Below are positions 1,821 to 23,763 of a stretch of 24,618 nt of DNA, one piece after another. Under the pieces are notes generated by a model. It was not told where the DNA came from, searched no databases, and saw only the letters and a program-made list of their open reading frames with translations. The stretch lies in IMG/VR virus record IMGVR_UViG_3300038701_001859, positions 1 through 24,618 of that record; one strand, written 5' to 3'. The DNA is from a virus. Numbering within the stretch: position 1 is the stretch's first letter; each line of letters opens with the position of its first letter. The translations under genes were made by a program, and so were the position numbers.

Positions 1821-2386
1821 ACACGCCATTTGAATGGAACCCGGAGACAGAGGCCCGCTTGTTTGAGCTCTGGAAAGCCGGACACCCTGGATCTGTGATT
1901 GCGAATATCATGCGCGCGCCTTCCCGCTCTGCCGTCATCGGCAAGCTGCACCGGCTGGGCTATACCGCAACGCACCCGGACGCGCCTGCCCGCACGAAGG
2001 ACATGATCAGCGCCCGTGGCACCCGCACCCGGATTGCAGGCGGCGGTCATGGCGGCAAGCGTGTGGCCGGTGGCGTCGTCAAGGCGAAGATTGTTCACCA
2101 GACGGTCAAGAGCCAGCTCAAGGCTGGTGCGGCAATTTTCCCGATCCAGATGAACCCGACGCGGTTTATTGATCTTGAGCGCGACCAGTGCCGGTTTCCA
2201 ATCGACGACATCAATGCTCCGGGGACCGCTGAGACGCTTTTCTGCGGCGCTCACCAGCGCGACGGCTCATCCTACTGCGAGCACCATCATGCGCGCTGCA
2301 TGACCCCTTACAAGCGCGCCAAGAAGCCCCGAGACCGCAGCGGCTTTATTGCCCGCGATAAGTTCGTGTTTGGGGTGGCAGCATGA
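1817..2386 (+). CDS. GcrA-family cell-cycle regulator homologue (189 aa)
   Basis: The N-terminus (about residues 5-50) reads as the GcrA DNA-binding domain: Trp-Asn-Pro-Glu-Thr-Glu, LFELWKAGHPGSVIANIM, then SRSAVIGKLHRLGYT. The C-terminus carries the second family signature, CRFPIDD, then a FCG motif and YCEHHHARCM near residue 150. Length is close to the usual 170-190 residues. GcrA in Caulobacter and relatives is a sigma70-associated transcription factor whose target promoters are marked by CcrM methylation at GANTC. The middle is a basic linker (residues 60-105). It overlaps both neighbours by ATGA, so it is a true part of the early operon. A role in redirecting host or phage transcription is inferred, not shown. 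Confidence 0.85.
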   Translation: MNTPFEWNPETEARLFELWKAGHPGSVIANIMRAPSRSAVIGKLHRLGYTATHPDAPARTKDMISARGTRTRIAGGGHGGKRVAGGVVKAKIVHQTVKSQLKAGAAIFPIQMNPTRFIDLERDQCRFPIDDINAPGTAETLFCGAHQRDGSSYCEHHHARCMTPYKRAKKPRDRSGFIARDKFVFGVAA

Positions 2387-3747
2387 CCCTTGCCCATTCC
2401 CAGCCGGAAGCCGAGCCGATCACTGCGCCGCATAATCTGGATGCAGAGCAGGCGCTGCTTGGTGCCATGCTTTACGATAACGCGGTCTTCCATCGCGTTG
2501 CCGACTGGCTGAAAGTCGAGCACTTCTATGATCCGGTTCATGGCCGGATCTTTGACGCCGCCGCCCGTCAGATTAACGCCGGGTCCGTGTGCGATGCTGT
2601 AACCCTTAAGTCGCGCTTTGAGAAAGATGACGGCCTGGCCGACATTGGCGGCACGGAATACATTTCCGATCTCGTCGCCGGCGCCTGCTTTGGCAATGCC
2701 GCGGTTGAATATGCGAAGATCGTTTTTGAACTTTCCCGCCGCCGTGAGCTGATGCAGATCGGCCGCGAGCTGGTGGACTCCAGCAGCGATGACGCCGACC
2801 TCAACCCGATTGAGCTTGTGGAGGCCACAGAGCGCCGTTTGGCAGAGTTGACGGGTACAGAGGAGGGCGAAGCCTGTTTCACCGCTGGAGAGGCCCTTAG
2901 AGCGGCCCTTGGCGCACCTGTGGAGTTTATCGAGACCGGACTGGCCGGGTTTGACGACCTGCGCGCGATTGCGCCGGGACTGACTATCATCGGCGGGCGG
3001 TCGAGCATGGGCAAGTCCGCCCTTCTGTGCGATCTGGTCTTGCGGTCGGCACAGCGTGGCCGCTCGGCTCTCATGCTGTCGAACGAGATGAACGCCCGGC
3101 AAATCGCCTCCCGCTGGGCCGCGACCCTTACCGGCGTGCCATACTTCCACATTATGAACGGAACCATGCACCGCGACCAATCGGACCGCGTGGCGGAAGT
3201 CCTGCCGGAAATCGACCGTCTTCCAGTGACGATTATCGAATGCCCTGGCGTAAACATTGCCGGCATCCGCTCCCGTATTCGTCGCTGGAAGCGCGATCAG
3301 GAGCGCGCCGGAAACAAGATCGGCGTCATTGGGCTCGACTATCTGCAAAACATCGGCGGCGCTGGCGGGTCCATCTATGAGCGCACCAGCGACATTGCCT
3401 TGGGCTTGCAGACCATCCAGCTGACCTTTGACGTTCCGCTTGTGGTTGCCTGCCAGCTTTCACGCGCTGCCGAGCACGAAAAAGACAAGCGCCCCTCGAT
3501 CCGTCATTTGCGCGATAGCGGCAAGATCGAGGAAGTCGCCGACAAGATCATCCTCGTTTACCGGGACGCCTATTATGCCGAGCGGGAACCGGAGGAGTCC
3601 GACACCTCCAAGGAAATGGACCGCCGCGAGCGGGCGTCATCCCGGCTGGTCGAAGCCGATGTTGCCAAGAACCGCCAAGGCGCGCTCGGCAAGGTCAAAC
3701 TGATGGGCGACATGGCCTGCAACCGCTTTGAGGATTGGGGGGCTTAG
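2383..3747 (+). CDS. dnaB: Replicative DNA helicase, DnaB-like (454 aa)
   Basis: A full-length DnaB-type hexameric helicase. The N-terminal domain starts PHNLDAEQALLGAMLYDNAVF (about residues 16-36) and includes HFYDPVHGRIFDA, as in bacterial DnaB. The RecA-like ATPase has Walker A GGRSSMGKS (about residues 205-213), Walker B IGLDYLQNI (about 315-323), the sensor ACQLSR (about 355-360) and the RDSGKIEEVADKIILVYRD segment with the arginine-finger region (about 376-394). No intein or break is present. It starts at an ATGA overlap with the GcrA-like gene. The next gene encodes a putative initiator carrying candidate iterons, suggesting a phage-encoded initiator/helicase pair that makes replication partly independent of the host loader. 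Confidence 0.93.
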   Translation: MTLAHSQPEAEPITAPHNLDAEQALLGAMLYDNAVFHRVADWLKVEHFYDPVHGRIFDAAARQINAGSVCDAVTLKSRFEKDDGLADIGGTEYISDLVAGACFGNAAVEYAKIVFELSRRRELMQIGRELVDSSSDDADLNPIELVEATERRLAELTGTEEGEACFTAGEALRAALGAPVEFIETGLAGFDDLRAIAPGLTIIGGRSSMGKSALLCDLVLRSAQRGRSALMLSNEMNARQIASRWAATLTGVPYFHIMNGTMHRDQSDRVAEVLPEIDRLPVTIIECPGVNIAGIRSRIRRWKRDQERAGNKIGVIGLDYLQNIGGAGGSIYERTSDIALGLQTIQLTFDVPLVVACQLSRAAEHEKDKRPSIRHLRDSGKIEEVADKIILVYRDAYYAEREPEESDTSKEMDRRERASSRLVEADVAKNRQGALGKVKLMGDMACNRFEDWGA

Positions 3748-3748
3748 A

Positions 3749-4570
3749 ATGTCTGTCGAGGCGATAACCTGGGCTGTAAAATACCCCGCTGAAAACGCGA
3801 CCGAGAAAGCCATCCTGCTGGTGCTTGCGAACTATGCAGACGGCGCCGGCGCGAGCTTTCCGGGTCAGCAGTCGATAGCCTCACTGGCTTCATGTGGTGA
3901 ACGCACTGTCCGCCGCGTCCTGGCCAGCTTTGAGGAGCGCGGAATCATCCGCCGTGAGGAGCGCCGCCGGCGTGACGGTTCGCGCACTTCTGACGTGATT
4001 GTTCTCGTCGCGTTTCAGCAAGCGGCCAATCTGGCCGGCAGTGATCAACCAACCGGCCAATCTGGCCGCACCAACCGGCCAACCTGTCCGGACCAACCGG
4101 CCACTGTGGCCGGGCTCACTACGTTTGACACGTCAGAGGATACACCAGAGACACGGGCGCGCGCGAAAAGCCTTCCTTCGGATGATGACTGCACCAGGTT
4201 TGCGAACGCATTCCCGGCTGGTGGAATGGTGAACGTCGCGAAAGCATCCCTTCCGATGGTGCTGGCTCGCCCATCGTTGAAGATCGGCGGAATTGACCAG
4301 CTGATTTGCGCGGCGAGCGAGTACGGGCGCCGGGTCGATGAGGCAAAGTCAAAACCGCGAAGCCTGGCCAACTGGCTGGCCGACTGGCCGTTGGTTGAAG
4401 AATGCGCCGGAGCTGGCAAGCCGCTTGGCACGGATTGGCGCGGCGAGGTCCAGCTTTTCCAAAGGTTCGGATCTTGGCGCCCAGATGGTCCGTCACCAGG
4501 CCAGCCTGGATGCCTGGCGCCGGCCAATGTGCTGGCAGAGTTTGGATACAGACAGGAGCACGCAGCATGA
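3749..4570 (+). CDS. Winged-helix replication initiator-like protein (273 aa)
   Basis: Residues 1-85 form a helix-turn-helix/winged-helix domain of the kind found in phage replication proteins: EAITWAVKYPAENATEKA, SFPGQQSIASLASCGERTVRR, then FEERGIIRREERRRRDG. I chose the ATG at 3749, one base after the helicase stop, rather than an upstream in-frame codon inside the helicase gene. The middle (about residues 90-122) is a low-complexity linker whose DNA carries four iteron-like repeats at 4023-4112. The C-terminal part includes SLANWLADWPLVEE, a helical end common in such proteins. By analogy with lambda O, the N-terminus would bind the repeats and the C-terminus recruit the helicase; this is inference from domain type, position and repeats. 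Confidence 0.7.
   Translation: MSVEAITWAVKYPAENATEKAILLVLANYADGAGASFPGQQSIASLASCGERTVRRVLASFEERGIIRREERRRRDGSRTSDVIVLVAFQQAANLAGSDQPTGQSGRTNRPTCPDQPATVAGLTTFDTSEDTPETRARAKSLPSDDDCTRFANAFPAGGMVNVAKASLPMVLARPSLKIGGIDQLICAASEYGRRVDEAKSKPRSLANWLADWPLVEECAGAGKPLGTDWRGEVQLFQRFGSWRPDGPSPGQPGCLAPANVLAEFGYRQEHAA
4023..4112 (+). repeat. Four iteron-like repeats, candidate replication origin
   Basis: Four related 15-base units with internal dyad symmetry: CGGCCAATCTGGCCG at 4023 and 4054, CGGCCAACCTGTCCG at 4076, CGGCCACTGTGGCCG at 4098. The last three share a CCAAC lead-in. Start-to-start distances are 31, 22 and 22 bases, about three, two and two helical turns, so all four face the same side of the DNA. 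Neither 31 nor 22 is a multiple of three, so neighbouring copies are read in different frames and encode different residues (AANLAG, TGQSGR, RPTCP, PATVAG). That points to selection on DNA rather than protein. The lambda origin likewise lies inside the O initiator gene. No strongly AT-rich unwinding element is obvious next to it. Confidence 0.7.
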
Positions 4571-5172
4571 CCAGAACACGCATGGGCTACACCTCCGACG
4601 AATTGCGCCAGAGTTTCGAGCCGGGCCGGGACGGGCATCGCCAGAACCTGAACGCCCGCGTGCTGGTCAGCGGCCCGAAGGAAGCGCCGCGGTTCGCCTT
4701 GTTTGACACCAGCAACCCTATCGAGAAGATGCGGCTGCGCGGTACGCTCGGCAAGGATGAGGCGGAAACCGGCCGGCGATACAGGGCCGCGCGGCTGTGG
4801 GCTCGCTTGCATCATGTGGCCAGCTCCGGCGCGCACACCTGCGAGATTGTGGACCGGGTGCAGGGATCGGGCGGTGGTGGCGAGGAAGCGCTTGTCCGGC
4901 GCCTGGACGCCAACCATGAGCGTGTCCGGATCCAGATCGACGGGCAGGGCATGACCCTAACCCGCTTCTTCGACCTCGACGCCTGTTGCGCAATCGGTGT
5001 CAGCTTCAACCAGCGCGCCAGCCAGTCGGGCCGGCATCACTCGACCGTGCAGCAAAGCGTCATCGCCGGGCTGGACGCGGTGGCCAAGTATGAGCCTTGG
5101 CAGCGCCAGCTTGACGCGGAGCCGGTCTTGAAGATCGACCACCTACCGCGGCGGAAGGGCAGGGCGGCGTAA
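4567..5172 (+). CDS. Unassigned early protein, last gene of the early operon (201 aa)
   Basis: The start ATG overlaps the initiator stop by four bases (ATGA), which fixes it over longer in-frame options. The N-terminal 50 residues are polar (MTRTRMGYTSDELRQSFEPG). Residues 55-130 contain GKDEAETGRRYRAARLWARL, a short Gly-rich loop (GSGGGGEE) and EALVRRLDANHERV. The C-terminal third reads RFFDLDACCAIGVSFNQRA, then GRHHSTVQQSVIAGLDAVAKY, which looks helical and HTH-like and recalls the DUF6456 layout, a weak resemblance only. It is the last gene before the promoter/terminator leader at 5184-5300, where many phages encode a late-transcription regulator or antiterminator. That role is a positional inference. 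Confidence 0.6.
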   Translation: MTRTRMGYTSDELRQSFEPGRDGHRQNLNARVLVSGPKEAPRFALFDTSNPIEKMRLRGTLGKDEAETGRRYRAARLWARLHHVASSGAHTCEIVDRVQGSGGGGEEALVRRLDANHERVRIQIDGQGMTLTRFFDLDACCAIGVSFNQRASQSGRHHSTVQQSVIAGLDAVAKYEPWQRQLDAEPVLKIDHLPRRKGRAA

Positions 5173-19866: not shown

Positions 19867-20245
19867 AGACCGCGCGCGGCTTGAGGCTTTCCTCATCCGC
19901 AACCGCTGCAAGCCGGTCGACTATCGGGCTTGGGATTGCGCGCGCTATGCCGCTGCGTGGCTGGCCGACAGCGGTCATCCCGTCAGCCTTCCGCACTGGT
20001 CAAATAAGTTCGGCGCCCTGCGCGTTGTGCGCCGGCATGGATACCGCTTGGCCGATCTGATGGCTGATTACGCGGGAAGCCCGACAGAACCGGCCCGCGC
20101 GCCTTGGGGCGCCATCGTGGCCCTGCCTTCGCCGCCTCTTGATGCCTTGGGCATCGCGGACGGCTCCTCCGCAATCTTCCTCGCGCCAAACGGTGGCTAT
20201 ACGCGCCGCCCGCTCCGCGCCTGCTCTCATGCCTGGGTGACCTGA
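19862..20245 (+). CDS. DUF6950-like tail protein with apparent ATT start (127 aa)
   Basis: A clearly coding frame begins at ATT 19862 and ends at TGA 20243-20245. It contains FLIRNRCKPVDYRAWDCARY, AAAWLADSG, LRVVRRHGYRLADLMADYAG, PWGAIVALP, LGIADGSSAIFLAP and the ending LRACSHAWVT. The pattern (DC motif near residue 27, GALR, WG and final AW) matches DUF6950-type proteins that stand next to DUF2163 in the place of the NlpC/P60 peptidase in GTA tails. No ATG, GTG or TTG lies upstream in frame without losing the conserved part. The ATT overlaps the hub stop, suggesting re-initiation. No catalytic His/Asn triad for a peptidase is obvious. Confidence 0.65.
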   Translation: MKDRARLEAFLIRNRCKPVDYRAWDCARYAAAWLADSGHPVSLPHWSNKFGALRVVRRHGYRLADLMADYAGSPTEPARAPWGAIVALPSPPLDALGIADGSSAIFLAPNGGYTRRPLRACSHAWVT

Positions 20246-23200
20246 TGCCTCCTGTCGTCGGTGCTGTTACGACCTTTATTGCATCCGCGCTCACCGCCGG
20301 ATTTACGCAATCGGTGGGGGCCACGCTTTGGGGCTTTGCCCAGCGCGCCCTGATCTCGGTCGGCCTTGGCTTGGCGTCCAGCGCGCTGACCCCAAAGCCA
20401 AAATCTCCCAGCTTCAATGATCCGGGCCGGCCGCTGGCTTTCCAGCCCAACCCGGACGCGCCGCGGCAGGTCATTTATGGCGAGACGGCCATCGCCGGCC
20501 AGATCATCGCCCAGCGCACCTCCTCCAATAACAAATACGCGCACTTTATCGCCGCCCTTGGCGATGGCGGTCCCTATGAAAGCGTCGAGGCCATCCGGCT
20601 CAACAATGAGACCGTAACGCTGGACGGATCGGGCTATGTGACCGCCCCGACCAAGTGGGCCAGCTCGAAATGCCGGATCGAAACCAAGCTCGGCACGGAA
20701 AGCCAGACGGCATTCTCGTCAGCGGTTTCCGAGATCAGCGATTGGACGAGCGACCATGCAGGCAAGGGCGTGGCGCTGGCTCATATGCGCTATGAGTACG
20801 ACCCGGAGGTCTGGACCAGCGGCATTCCTTCGCCCCTGTTCATCATGCGCGGCCGCAAGGTTTACGATCCGCGCCTTGACAGCTCGCCCGGCAATGACCC
20901 GACGAATGCGTCCTATATCGCATGGTCTCAAAACCCGGCGCTCTGGGCGCTCGACTATATCCGGGGCGTCGAAACAAACGGGACGCGCGTCCTAGGCTTG
21001 GGCGTTCCCTCTGCCCTGATCGACTGGCAGAGCTTTGCCGACGCCGCGGACGTGTGCGACGAGACGGTCGCGGTAAAGGCGGGCGGCACGATTGCCCGCT
21101 ATACCGGCGGCGGTGGCATCGTCTCGGCGGCTGACGATCCGATTGCCGTGCTTGAAGCCATGATGTCGGCGATGGCCGGCGTTCTCACCACGCGCTCGGG
21201 CCTGATCTCGATTTATGCAGGCGAGGCCCAGACCGCGACGGTGACGCTGACCGATGACGATCTGGCCGGGCCGATCCGTGTGACGGGCGCGCGGTCCATC
21301 CGCGAAACGGCGAACGCGGTCTCGGTCCAGTATCGCGAACCCTCAGCGGGCTATAATTTTGCAGGCGCTCCGGCCTATCGTAATTCGACTTGGGAGACCG
21401 AGGACGACAGCGAAGTGCTGTGGACCGAGCTACGCCTGCCTTTCACCGATGACCACCGCGTTGCGCAGCGCCTGGCCAAGATCCACGGCGGCAACAAGCG
21501 CGAGCCCCGCGAGATATCCGCGCGCTACAAGATCAAGGCCATCCAAATTCAGGAAGGCGAGGTCTTCACGCTCGACAGCGACAGCTACGGGTCGGCGGCA
21601 AATGGGAAATATCGCGTCGTCTCGCGGAAGATCAACCCGGACGGCTCCGTTGACATCACGGCTCGCTCGGAGACTGACAGCAAATACGACTGGACCGCCG
21701 CAAGCGAGGAGCAAGACCCGCCGGCCGGCACAGTCGCCGCCGCTTCAACGCCGACCACGGCCACCCCGACCGGCTGGAGTGTGACGGCAACAGAGGTCAG
21801 CGGACCACAAGGCGCGGTGCAGACTGTGCTCAATATCGCAGCTCCGGGCAGCATCGACGCTTCGGTCCTGTCCGTCGAAATCGAGTATCAACGGCAAGCG
21901 GGCGCCAGCCTTGGGCTGGACTTCCTTGGCTCGCAGTTTTCCAGCGAGAGCGGATCTGTTGCTGGGGATGGCGACTATATCCCGGTCGCGACCCTTTCCC
22001 GCGCTCAAGCCCTGAACGGCTATCGTATCCCGAACGTCGAGCGCGCGCGGGGCTATTCGATCCGCATTCGATACCGCAGCTCGTTCTATATCGCCTCGGA
22101 TTGGCTGACTATCGAAGCCGCGGTCGATCAGGGTGGCGCCGCGCTGGCCGCACCTAGCGGCTGGACCGCTGCCGGATCGACCCAGACCAGTGCCGAAGGA
22201 TATGCCCGGCCGGTGGTGACAGTCACTGCCCCGACCTCCGGTGTTCCGGCAAGCGCAAGCCTTGTGGCAATCGACATCCGCAAGGTGACGGATTCCGAGT
22301 TCTCAGACCAGACGGTCCTGAGCCGAGGCGAGGCAGCGCGCGGCCGCACCATCCAGGCCATTGCCGGGAATAGCTATTACGTCCGCGTTAGGTATGGCTC
22401 CGATGGCGGCGTGTGGGGGCAGGCCCAGATCATCCCGGTCAGCGTGGACGCGACGGGCGCGGTTGCCCTGACGACCTTTGCGGTCTCCTCCACCTCGCAG
22501 ACCTCCGGCAGCTTTGCCTTGCCGGGCTTTTCCGCTTCATGGGATGCGCTTTCTGGCGATGACCTGCAGCGCACGCGCTCGATTGCGGTTCAATATCGGC
22601 TCGACGGCACGACAAATGTCACCACGCTTTATGTGGAAGCCGACGAAACGGCCAAAGCTGTTGCGGGCCTGATCGGCGGGGCGACCTATAATGTCCGCGC
22701 GCGGGCCGAGGACGTTTATGGCGGCGGAAGCTGGACGAGCTGGGCGGATGTGACGGTCTCGTCAACATGGACGGTCGGCGGGGCCACCTCGGTCGGCTGG
22801 TCCGGCGTTTCTGACGATGACGGGAACCGGCCTGAGCCGAACGCCAACTACATCACGAACACAAGCGAGCTGACGGACGGAGCAGGCTTAGGTGATACTG
22901 CTGTGTGGTCTTCGGTTGATGGTATTCCGGAGAACCTTGACTCGCTTGTTGGTACGGAACCGATCCTTAACACCGCTATCACAGTTGACGGTTCCGGTGT
23001 GTTGAGTGGTATCGGCACAGCGTCCATCGTGGTTAATAACGCTTCGCTCACGGTTGCCAACATTCCCACGCTGAGCCTTTCAAAGATCAGTGACGCGGGG
23101 GGGCTTGCTTCGCTGGACGAAATAGGTCCGACAGAATTGGCGTCCGGGTATAATCTTGTTACAGCTTCAACGGGATTTCCCACCCCTTCCGGTTCTAAAA

Positions 23201-23763
23201 TTATTGAAGACGCATCAAACAATCGCGTGCTTTACGACGACAGCGTGAAAATCAGACGTCTTTCAGCCGAAAATTTTTCAGGAACACTCGCGAGTGACAT
23301 TTCCGTCAGCAACACAGATTACGTAGCGGTAGCTTCGGCCACAATATCAAACGTAAATGCAGAAACTTTGATTTGGGTTCCCACTGTTAATGCGACATTC
23401 CAAACGCCAGCGGCAAGCGATGCTGCGGCAACGGGTCAATGGGCCGTGTTTATTACAGATACGGTTGTTTCCGCCAATTCCTTGGTTAGTGGGGCAACAA
23501 ACGAGCGCAAGGTTTGGGAAGGCGCGCCAGACGGTCTATCTTTCACAACGTTTGTAAATGTAGTTGTGGACTTTAACGACCTGAGTACAACGACCAATGC
23601 CGGTTATGGGCAAGTGCCGCTTGCACCGTTTATTGCCGGGGAGGATTTTGAGGGTTCAACAATGTACGTTGTGCTCGCCTTGCGTGTTACTACTGTTGGC
23701 GGTGAGAGTATCAAAATCGCAGCAGGGTCAACAACACGTATCGAAGCGACGCTGATCGGTTGA
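20245..23763 (+). CDS. Tail-tip/host specificity protein, J-like with fn3 repeats (1172 aa)
   Basis: The large tip protein that contacts the host. The N-terminus has two hydrophobic helices (TTFIASALTAGF, then RALISVGLGLASSALTPKPK), then the conserved PDAPRQVIYGETAIAGQIIA (about residues 70-90) of lambda J-type tip proteins. The central domain includes NPALWALDYIRGVETNGTRV and EPREISARYKIKAIQIQEGE. From about residue 500 to 870, beta-sandwich repeats look like fibronectin type III (PASASLVAIDIRKVTDSEFS, RTIQAIAGNSYYVRVRYGSD, GGATYNVRARAEDVYGGGSW). The last 300 residues are different: lower GC, rich in Ser/Thr/Val/Asn, without fn3 features, and probably the receptor-binding part. Start is at a TGATG overlap. 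Confidence 0.9.
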   Translation: MPPVVGAVTTFIASALTAGFTQSVGATLWGFAQRALISVGLGLASSALTPKPKSPSFNDPGRPLAFQPNPDAPRQVIYGETAIAGQIIAQRTSSNNKYAHFIAALGDGGPYESVEAIRLNNETVTLDGSGYVTAPTKWASSKCRIETKLGTESQTAFSSAVSEISDWTSDHAGKGVALAHMRYEYDPEVWTSGIPSPLFIMRGRKVYDPRLDSSPGNDPTNASYIAWSQNPALWALDYIRGVETNGTRVLGLGVPSALIDWQSFADAADVCDETVAVKAGGTIARYTGGGGIVSAADDPIAVLEAMMSAMAGVLTTRSGLISIYAGEAQTATVTLTDDDLAGPIRVTGARSIRETANAVSVQYREPSAGYNFAGAPAYRNSTWETEDDSEVLWTELRLPFTDDHRVAQRLAKIHGGNKREPREISARYKIKAIQIQEGEVFTLDSDSYGSAANGKYRVVSRKINPDGSVDITARSETDSKYDWTAASEEQDPPAGTVAAASTPTTATPTGWSVTATEVSGPQGAVQTVLNIAAPGSIDASVLSVEIEYQRQAGASLGLDFLGSQFSSESGSVAGDGDYIPVATLSRAQALNGYRIPNVERARGYSIRIRYRSSFYIASDWLTIEAAVDQGGAALAAPSGWTAAGSTQTSAEGYARPVVTVTAPTSGVPASASLVAIDIRKVTDSEFSDQTVLSRGEAARGRTIQAIAGNSYYVRVRYGSDGGVWGQAQIIPVSVDATGAVALTTFAVSSTSQTSGSFALPGFSASWDALSGDDLQRTRSIAVQYRLDGTTNVTTLYVEADETAKAVAGLIGGATYNVRARAEDVYGGGSWTSWADVTVSSTWTVGGATSVGWSGVSDDDGNRPEPNANYITNTSELTDGAGLGDTAVWSSVDGIPENLDSLVGTEPILNTAITVDGSGVLSGIGTASIVVNNASLTVANIPTLSLSKISDAGGLASLDEIGPTELASGYNLVTASTGFPTPSGSKIIEDASNNRVLYDDSVKIRRLSAENFSGTLASDISVSNTDYVAVASATISNVNAETLIWVPTVNATFQTPAASDAAATGQWAVFITDTVVSANSLVSGATNERKVWEGAPDGLSFTTFVNVVVDFNDLSTTTNAGYGQVPLAPFIAGEDFEGSTMYVVLALRVTTVGGESIKIAAGSTTRIEATLIG

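Follow-up and report, generated by a model that had tools for sequence, protein, structure and literature searches.

The initiator gene and its iterons

The window, i.e. the whole stretch of DNA analysed here, is an entire viral record of 24.6 kb (kilobases; IMG/VR IMGVR_UViG_3300038701_001859, 24,618 nucleotides) from a phage of uncultured bacteria. It encodes an O-like replication initiator directly downstream of a DnaB-type replicative helicase, and inside the initiator gene lies a cluster of four spaced palindromic repeats, hereafter iterons, which is the subject of this work. The genes and iterons are located as follows:

2383-3747, plus strand: gene of the DnaB-type replicative helicase (DnaB_C, E value 8.2e-50), directly upstream of the initiator gene
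3749-4570, plus strand: gene of the O-like replication initiator, 273 amino acids (HTH_36, PF13730, E value 9.7e-11; phrog_1032, E value 5.7e-18)
4017-4038, plus strand: iteron 1, core 4023-4037 (CGGCCAATCTGGCCG), kept in the relatives L001-L003 and L006
4048-4069, plus strand: iteron 2, core 4054-4068, supported by repeat finder, shuffles and relatives
4070-4091, plus strand: iteron 3, core 4076-4090, with one mismatch to the dyad
4092-4113, plus strand: iteron 4, core 4098-4112, a perfect dyad

The initiator is predicted to consist of a winged helix (amino acids 1-91), a disordered linker (amino acids 92-139) and a C-terminal helical domain; residues 92-139 are the only long stretch of low confidence in the AlphaFold2 model. 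A profile search revealed no Rep domain in the window protein, nor does it match Phage_rep_O or TIGR01610 at an E value of 0.01; lambda O and P22 gp18 match PF04492. In a sequence search of the PDB, neither the winged helix nor lambda O had a close relative. A fold search with the winged helix retrieved generic winged helices including the N-terminal domain of DnaD (2v79, rank 13), none of them with an E value < 0.001. A P-type helicase loader was not seen in the window.

A first-pass annotation, made from the DNA alone, had described four 15-base units with dyad symmetry at distances of 31, 22 and 22 nucleotides. A repeat finder returned one family, the four 22-mers listed above with exactly these steps, whose palindromic 15-mer cores have the form CGGCCANNNTGGCCG; two of the cores match the dyad at 6/6 outer pairs, the third at 5 and the fourth at 7/7. 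On average, two of the four units agree at 18.5/22 positions, compared to 12.0 ± 0.98 (maximum 15.8) in 20,000 protein-preserving synonymous-codon shuffles, and 300 synonymous and 300 codon-order shuffles never gave four copies within 120 nucleotides, the maximum being 2. Neighbouring units are indeed read in different frames (1, 2, 0 and 1) and encode different peptides (QQAANLAG, QPTGQSGR, TNRPTCPD and DQPATVAG); as the steps add up to 75 (31 + 22 + 22), units 1 and 4 are in the same frame. Across the window, these four are the only matches to the iteron at ≤1 mismatch.

Selection on the DNA

From the different frames it had been argued that selection acts at the DNA level, and that motif and phasing should be kept in relatives while the peptide varies. 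This was borne out. In L001, L002, L003 and L006, whose initiators are 93, 84, 78 and 72% identical in amino acids to that of the window, iteron number, spacing and core are preserved. In codon pairs that encode the same residue, synonymous differences amount to 0.107 in codons ~90-146 and to 0.443 in the rest of the gene. No other circular shift gave an equally low value, and the amino-acid differences in this trough are average. Since the trough reaches ~75 nucleotides past the last iteron, the functional DNA extends over ~4010-4186, including a right arm 3' of the iterons that the first-pass annotation had missed:

4010-4186, plus strand: block conserved as DNA (the synonymous-difference trough), the proposed limits of the origin

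This block covers approximately the same interval as linker residues 92-139, i.e. the origin candidate encodes a predicted disordered linker. At the iterons and the right arm selection acts on the DNA and not on the peptide, as the computation shows. If the repeats were conserved for the peptide, as a repetitive linker, they would be expected in a coding region that they keep open, which is where they are; but the units are not all in one reading frame, the synonymous sites hardly vary although the amino acids do, and the linker is predicted to be disordered. The probability of this explanation is practically nil.

The iterons are a property of the family. The homologue set comprised 133 non-redundant members (first 92, then 41 more), and in the repeat test spaced repeats in nucleotides 201-600 of the gene had to exceed every one of 40 synonymous shuffles. 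Repeats of this kind, at the corresponding place in the gene, were found in 84/133 homologues, always in at least three copies, versus 3/120 other open reading frames of the same loci. As a control, the detector recovered the four annotated iterons of lambda O with an offset of 0-1 nucleotides, and in P22 gene 18 it found repeats within the annotated rep_origin. Among the first 92 homologues the steps were 22 (81 cases), 23 (23), 16-17 (28), 25 (11) and 33 nucleotides (8); the dominant step of 22 nucleotides rotates the reading frame, and at least two frames are used in 60/61 significant members. The iteron sequences themselves are lineage-specific: CCGGCCA in the group of the window, CCGGAAA, CCCGACA, ACAGACA, CCGGCAC, GGTCA and others elsewhere. 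A pattern scan of viral contigs for the exact iteron pair retrieved close relatives only, and few homologues came from order- and class-wide genome searches.

Covariation of the recognition helix with the iterons

That the winged-helix protein binds the iterons had been proposed before; it is now supported by covariation between one residue of the predicted recognition helix and one base of the half-site:

3899-3937, plus strand: codons of the predicted recognition helix (amino acids 51-63); the codon of Arg56 (3914-3916) covaries with iteron base -3

Where the dyad is clear, members with Arg56 have C at half-site position -3 in 26/27 cases, whereas those with another residue have C there in 1/28 (p about 2e-13, uncorrected for relatedness). 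In the sole case of Arg56 without C, a repeat of the right arm had been picked up instead of the iterons. Arginine reading the G opposite this C is usual chemistry. The residue-56 rule was written down before further members were fetched. In these held-out members Arg56 was found with C at -3 in 8/9 and non-Arg residues with other bases in 5/5 cases (Fisher p 0.003), at a dyad cut-off of 3.5/6 that was fixed with the held-out list already known; if no dyad filter is applied, the counts are 12 C and 4 other for Arg, and 0 C and 7 other for non-Arg. A rule for position 55 (Arg with G at -6) fits most held-out members, but not L335.

The association recurs along the tree. In a tree built without the helix columns the class of residue 56 changes 11 times and the iteron base 12 times, and three independent pairs on well-supported branches agree in nearly every pairing, although they are too few for significance alone. 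Pairs that are at least 70% identical outside the helix share the base in 0/6 cases if they differ in class and in 33/33 cases if they do not. The sisters L118 (Thr56, GGGGAAA) and L147 (Arg56, GGGGACA) differ at exactly base -3. A Mantel test across all homologues yielded a correlation that is real but modest (partial 0.23); the single-site rule is clearer. As a link between winged helix and iterons the covariation is stronger than gene order, and it supports direct contact between the two. Winged-helix residues 40, 49, 74, 78, 80 and 81, which belong to the beginning of the recognition helix or to the wing, are likewise among the highest in covariation with the iteron sequence.

These data bear on two further explanations. 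The repeats might be conserved for an RNA structure of the early transcript, and the region does fold somewhat better than shuffles (z -2.33). However, there are no Rfam matches above threshold, steps and iteron number vary while the helical spacing persists, and base -3 tracks a DNA-binding residue, which makes a role as RNA hardly credible. Site arrays are also established at pac, att and centromere loci, and the cluster might serve in packaging, recombination or partition. We regard this as very improbable: the repeats occur in the initiator gene of many unrelated relatives, their sequence tracks the initiator's own helix, and the gene of the large terminase lies ~1.9 kb downstream, with no copies there.

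The right arm

The following elements were recognized 3' of the iterons:

4115-4126, plus strand: CTCACTACGTTT, start of the right arm; the same string stands beside different iterons in L008, L010, L011, L084, L096, L115, L118 and L200
4127-4138, plus strand: right-arm repeat 1, GACACGTCAGAG; L002 has GAACCGTCAGAG at this place
4139-4150, plus strand: right-arm repeat 2, GATACACCAGAG, degenerate, 12 nucleotides downstream of repeat 1
4157-4166, plus strand: GCGCGCGCGA tract within the conserved block

Homologues with unrelated iterons share a strand-specific array of the GAACCGTCA type, with one repeat per helical turn and in several reading frames. It is present in 73/133 homologues, and an exact GAACCGTCA stands at the corresponding position in L002, the nearest relative of the window on the tree. 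Where the iterons are unrelated, homologues write the encoded EP[SL] with GAA in 98% (background 47%), with TCA for Ser in 81% (14%) and with TTA for Leu in 72% (9%). AACC[GA]TC and close variants occur 134 times in nucleotides 250-560 of the 133 genes, a 4-fold enrichment over the 33 expected from synonymous shuffles. This motif type lies almost only on the plus strand, has 17 times the density found across the loci as a whole, has steps of 11-13 nucleotides and is found in two or three frames in 20 members. The commonest shared 7-mer of the right arm, GAACCGT, is present in 54/133 members and elsewhere in the genes once. The first copy lies at a median of 35 nucleotides 3' of the last iteron (56/84), with one match on the 5' side. 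The family as a whole has a peak of AT content (adenine plus thymine) at the right arm, 0.10-0.13 over the gene mean, 0-40 nucleotides 3' of the iterons.

Among cultured phages, inspection by eye revealed GAACCAGTCA arrays in Vibrio phages H20 and D67, a less regular one in Pseudomonas phage vB_Pae_U7, and a related array, GGAACAGTA, in Bcep176. The presence of a phage helicase was considered as an explanation of the motif and rejected, as the motif occurs with and without a DnaB gene; it is therefore probably read by the initiator itself or by a host factor. A description of the motif was not found in open-licence papers, searched by topic and, for the motif string, among the top 30 of 2,073 matches.

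Two observations may be added. A GCGCGCG/CGCGCGA tract follows the right-arm repeats in ~20/133 homologues, CGCGCGA being found 21 times on the plus and 2 times on the minus strand. Some homologues without GAACCGTCA (L049 5940+, L044 5880+) have GGAACTAAAG/GGAACAG repeats with steps of 10-12 nucleotides at the same place, which suggests that the array retains its form although its sequence drifts.

A model of initiation

We consider it very likely that the element is a lambda-type intragenic origin of theta replication with a non-lambda initiator, at which initiator dimers would bind the iterons, the right arm would open and the DnaB-type helicase would be loaded. Replication would start at this site. 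We infer the following series of steps. Dimers of the winged-helix initiator would occupy the four dyad iterons, which fall on almost one face of the helix, and the bound initiator would wrap this DNA up compactly. The resulting strain could open the right arm next to it (about 4114-4186); the short directional repeats of this arm, spaced one per turn, are probably held single-stranded on one side. The initiator would recruit the DnaB encoded upstream; that its C-terminal domain helps to load the helicase is a guess from gene order.

The right arm is thus probably the opening or helicase-loading element. A more far-reaching proposal, which we make tentatively and rate a little below even, is that it is a second origin module of HTH_36-type phages that has not been described before: a one-strand GAAC(C)-type array with one repeat per helical turn that persists as the iterons diverge and would guide strand opening or helicase loading by single-strand recognition, similar to the DnaA-trio but with a different sequence.

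The iterons could alternatively be operators through which the winged helix regulates early transcription or its own gene, with the origin elsewhere. Dimeric palindromes beside a winged helix do look operator-like, and the covariation speaks for binding, not for a purpose. But the sites lie in the coding region, ~270 nucleotides past the start codon, there are no further copies near promoters, the protein families label the protein a replication initiator, the second DNA module lies, with few exceptions, 3' of the sites, and the layout matches the proven origin of lambda. A role as operators only is unlikely; both roles may coexist.

Several points weigh against an origin as modelled here. The first-pass annotation had conceded that it saw no clear AT-rich melting region, and this is true of the window: AT content just 3' of the last unit is 45% compared to an average of 38%, whereas it is 78% at this place in lambda. 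The conserved right arm answers this worry in part, but its repeats in the window are degenerate (GACACGTCA, GATACACCA). The GC skew of the window (guanine versus cytosine) is weak, confounded by the direction of transcription and too weak for use. The repeat test was failed by 49/133 homologues, partly through its strictness, and one part of the rule written down beforehand, Asp or Glu at position 56 with G, failed on the held-out members.

The Arg56/C(-3) code should permit the prediction of iterons and tests of specificity by swaps. With the right-arm array there is a defined candidate for the step of opening and helicase loading, and it becomes testable how a GC-rich phage origin opens without a strong AT tract.

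Genome context

The early region has a lambda-like order ahead of the structural genes: CII-like activator, HNH endonuclease, RusA, GcrA-like protein, DnaB helicase and O-like initiator. After the initiator, Pfam identified terminase, DUF4055 and Mu F-like proteins and a P22-like coat protein. The GcrA-like cell-cycle regulator (1817-2386, Pfam E value 1.8e-20) is a sign of an alphaproteobacterial host. The stop codon TGA of the initiator gene and the ATG with which the following reading frame begins overlap (ATGA, 4567-4570), and the protein of the open reading frame 4402-5172 matched no Pfam or PHROG family. GC content drops to ~50% at 22750-23750, within an open reading frame of 1172 amino acids (20245-23763), and is ~62% elsewhere; this stretch may be a tail or receptor module that was acquired recently.

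Comparison with known systems

The origin of lambda is the textbook case. There, dimers of O bound to bent iterons bring about opening of the neighbouring DNA when it is negatively supercoiled (PMC5043065). Unwinding requires the AT tract, whereas binding of O does not (PMC7466680). As in the window, four dyad iterons lie inside gene O, just 3' of the DNA-binding domain, and the same holds for the origins of Stx phages (PMC7466680). The steps, of ~2 helical turns, are 20/24/23 in lambda and 31/22/22 in the window, and the melting region of lambda lies 3' of the iterons, on the same side as the conserved right arm. However, the window initiator belongs to HTH_36 and not to Phage_rep_O/TIGR01610, a strong AT tract is lacking, the right arm has a repeat array, and the helicase gene is phage-encoded and upstream. 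Of the lambda-type comparison drawn in the first-pass annotation, the architecture of intragenic dyad iterons therefore stands, but the protein family does not. P22 (gene 18/gene 12) also has an intragenic origin beside a phage DnaB-type helicase, with another protein family (PF04492), the helicase downstream and a different iteron sequence. The right-arm motif is absent from the origins of lambda and P22.

The same type of initiator as in the window is found in PHROG 1032 and 391, the HTH_36/O-like initiators, and Arthrobacter phage KellEzio gp40 and Burkholderia phage Bcep176 gp11 have spaced repeats at the same place; iteron sequences and C-terminal domains differ. In the literature searched, we found neither a mapped origin among the HTH_36-type phage initiators, a large family, nor experimental origin work on HTH_36/PHROG 1032/391 initiators, the window phage or a close relative.

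Plasmid iteron origins (RK2, P1, F; reviewed in PMC5043065) share phased initiator sites beside a melting region, but their iterons are asymmetric direct repeats bound by Rep-type initiators, whereas those of the window are palindromic and have a different initiator. The right arm resembles the DnaA-trio of bacterial oriC (Richardson 2016, cited in PMC5043065) in that strand-specific short repeats lie beside initiator boxes; the period of the trio is 3 nucleotides compared to 11-13 in the right arm, and the sequences differ. Altogether, the element in the window would work like ori-lambda, yet outside the Phage_rep_O family.
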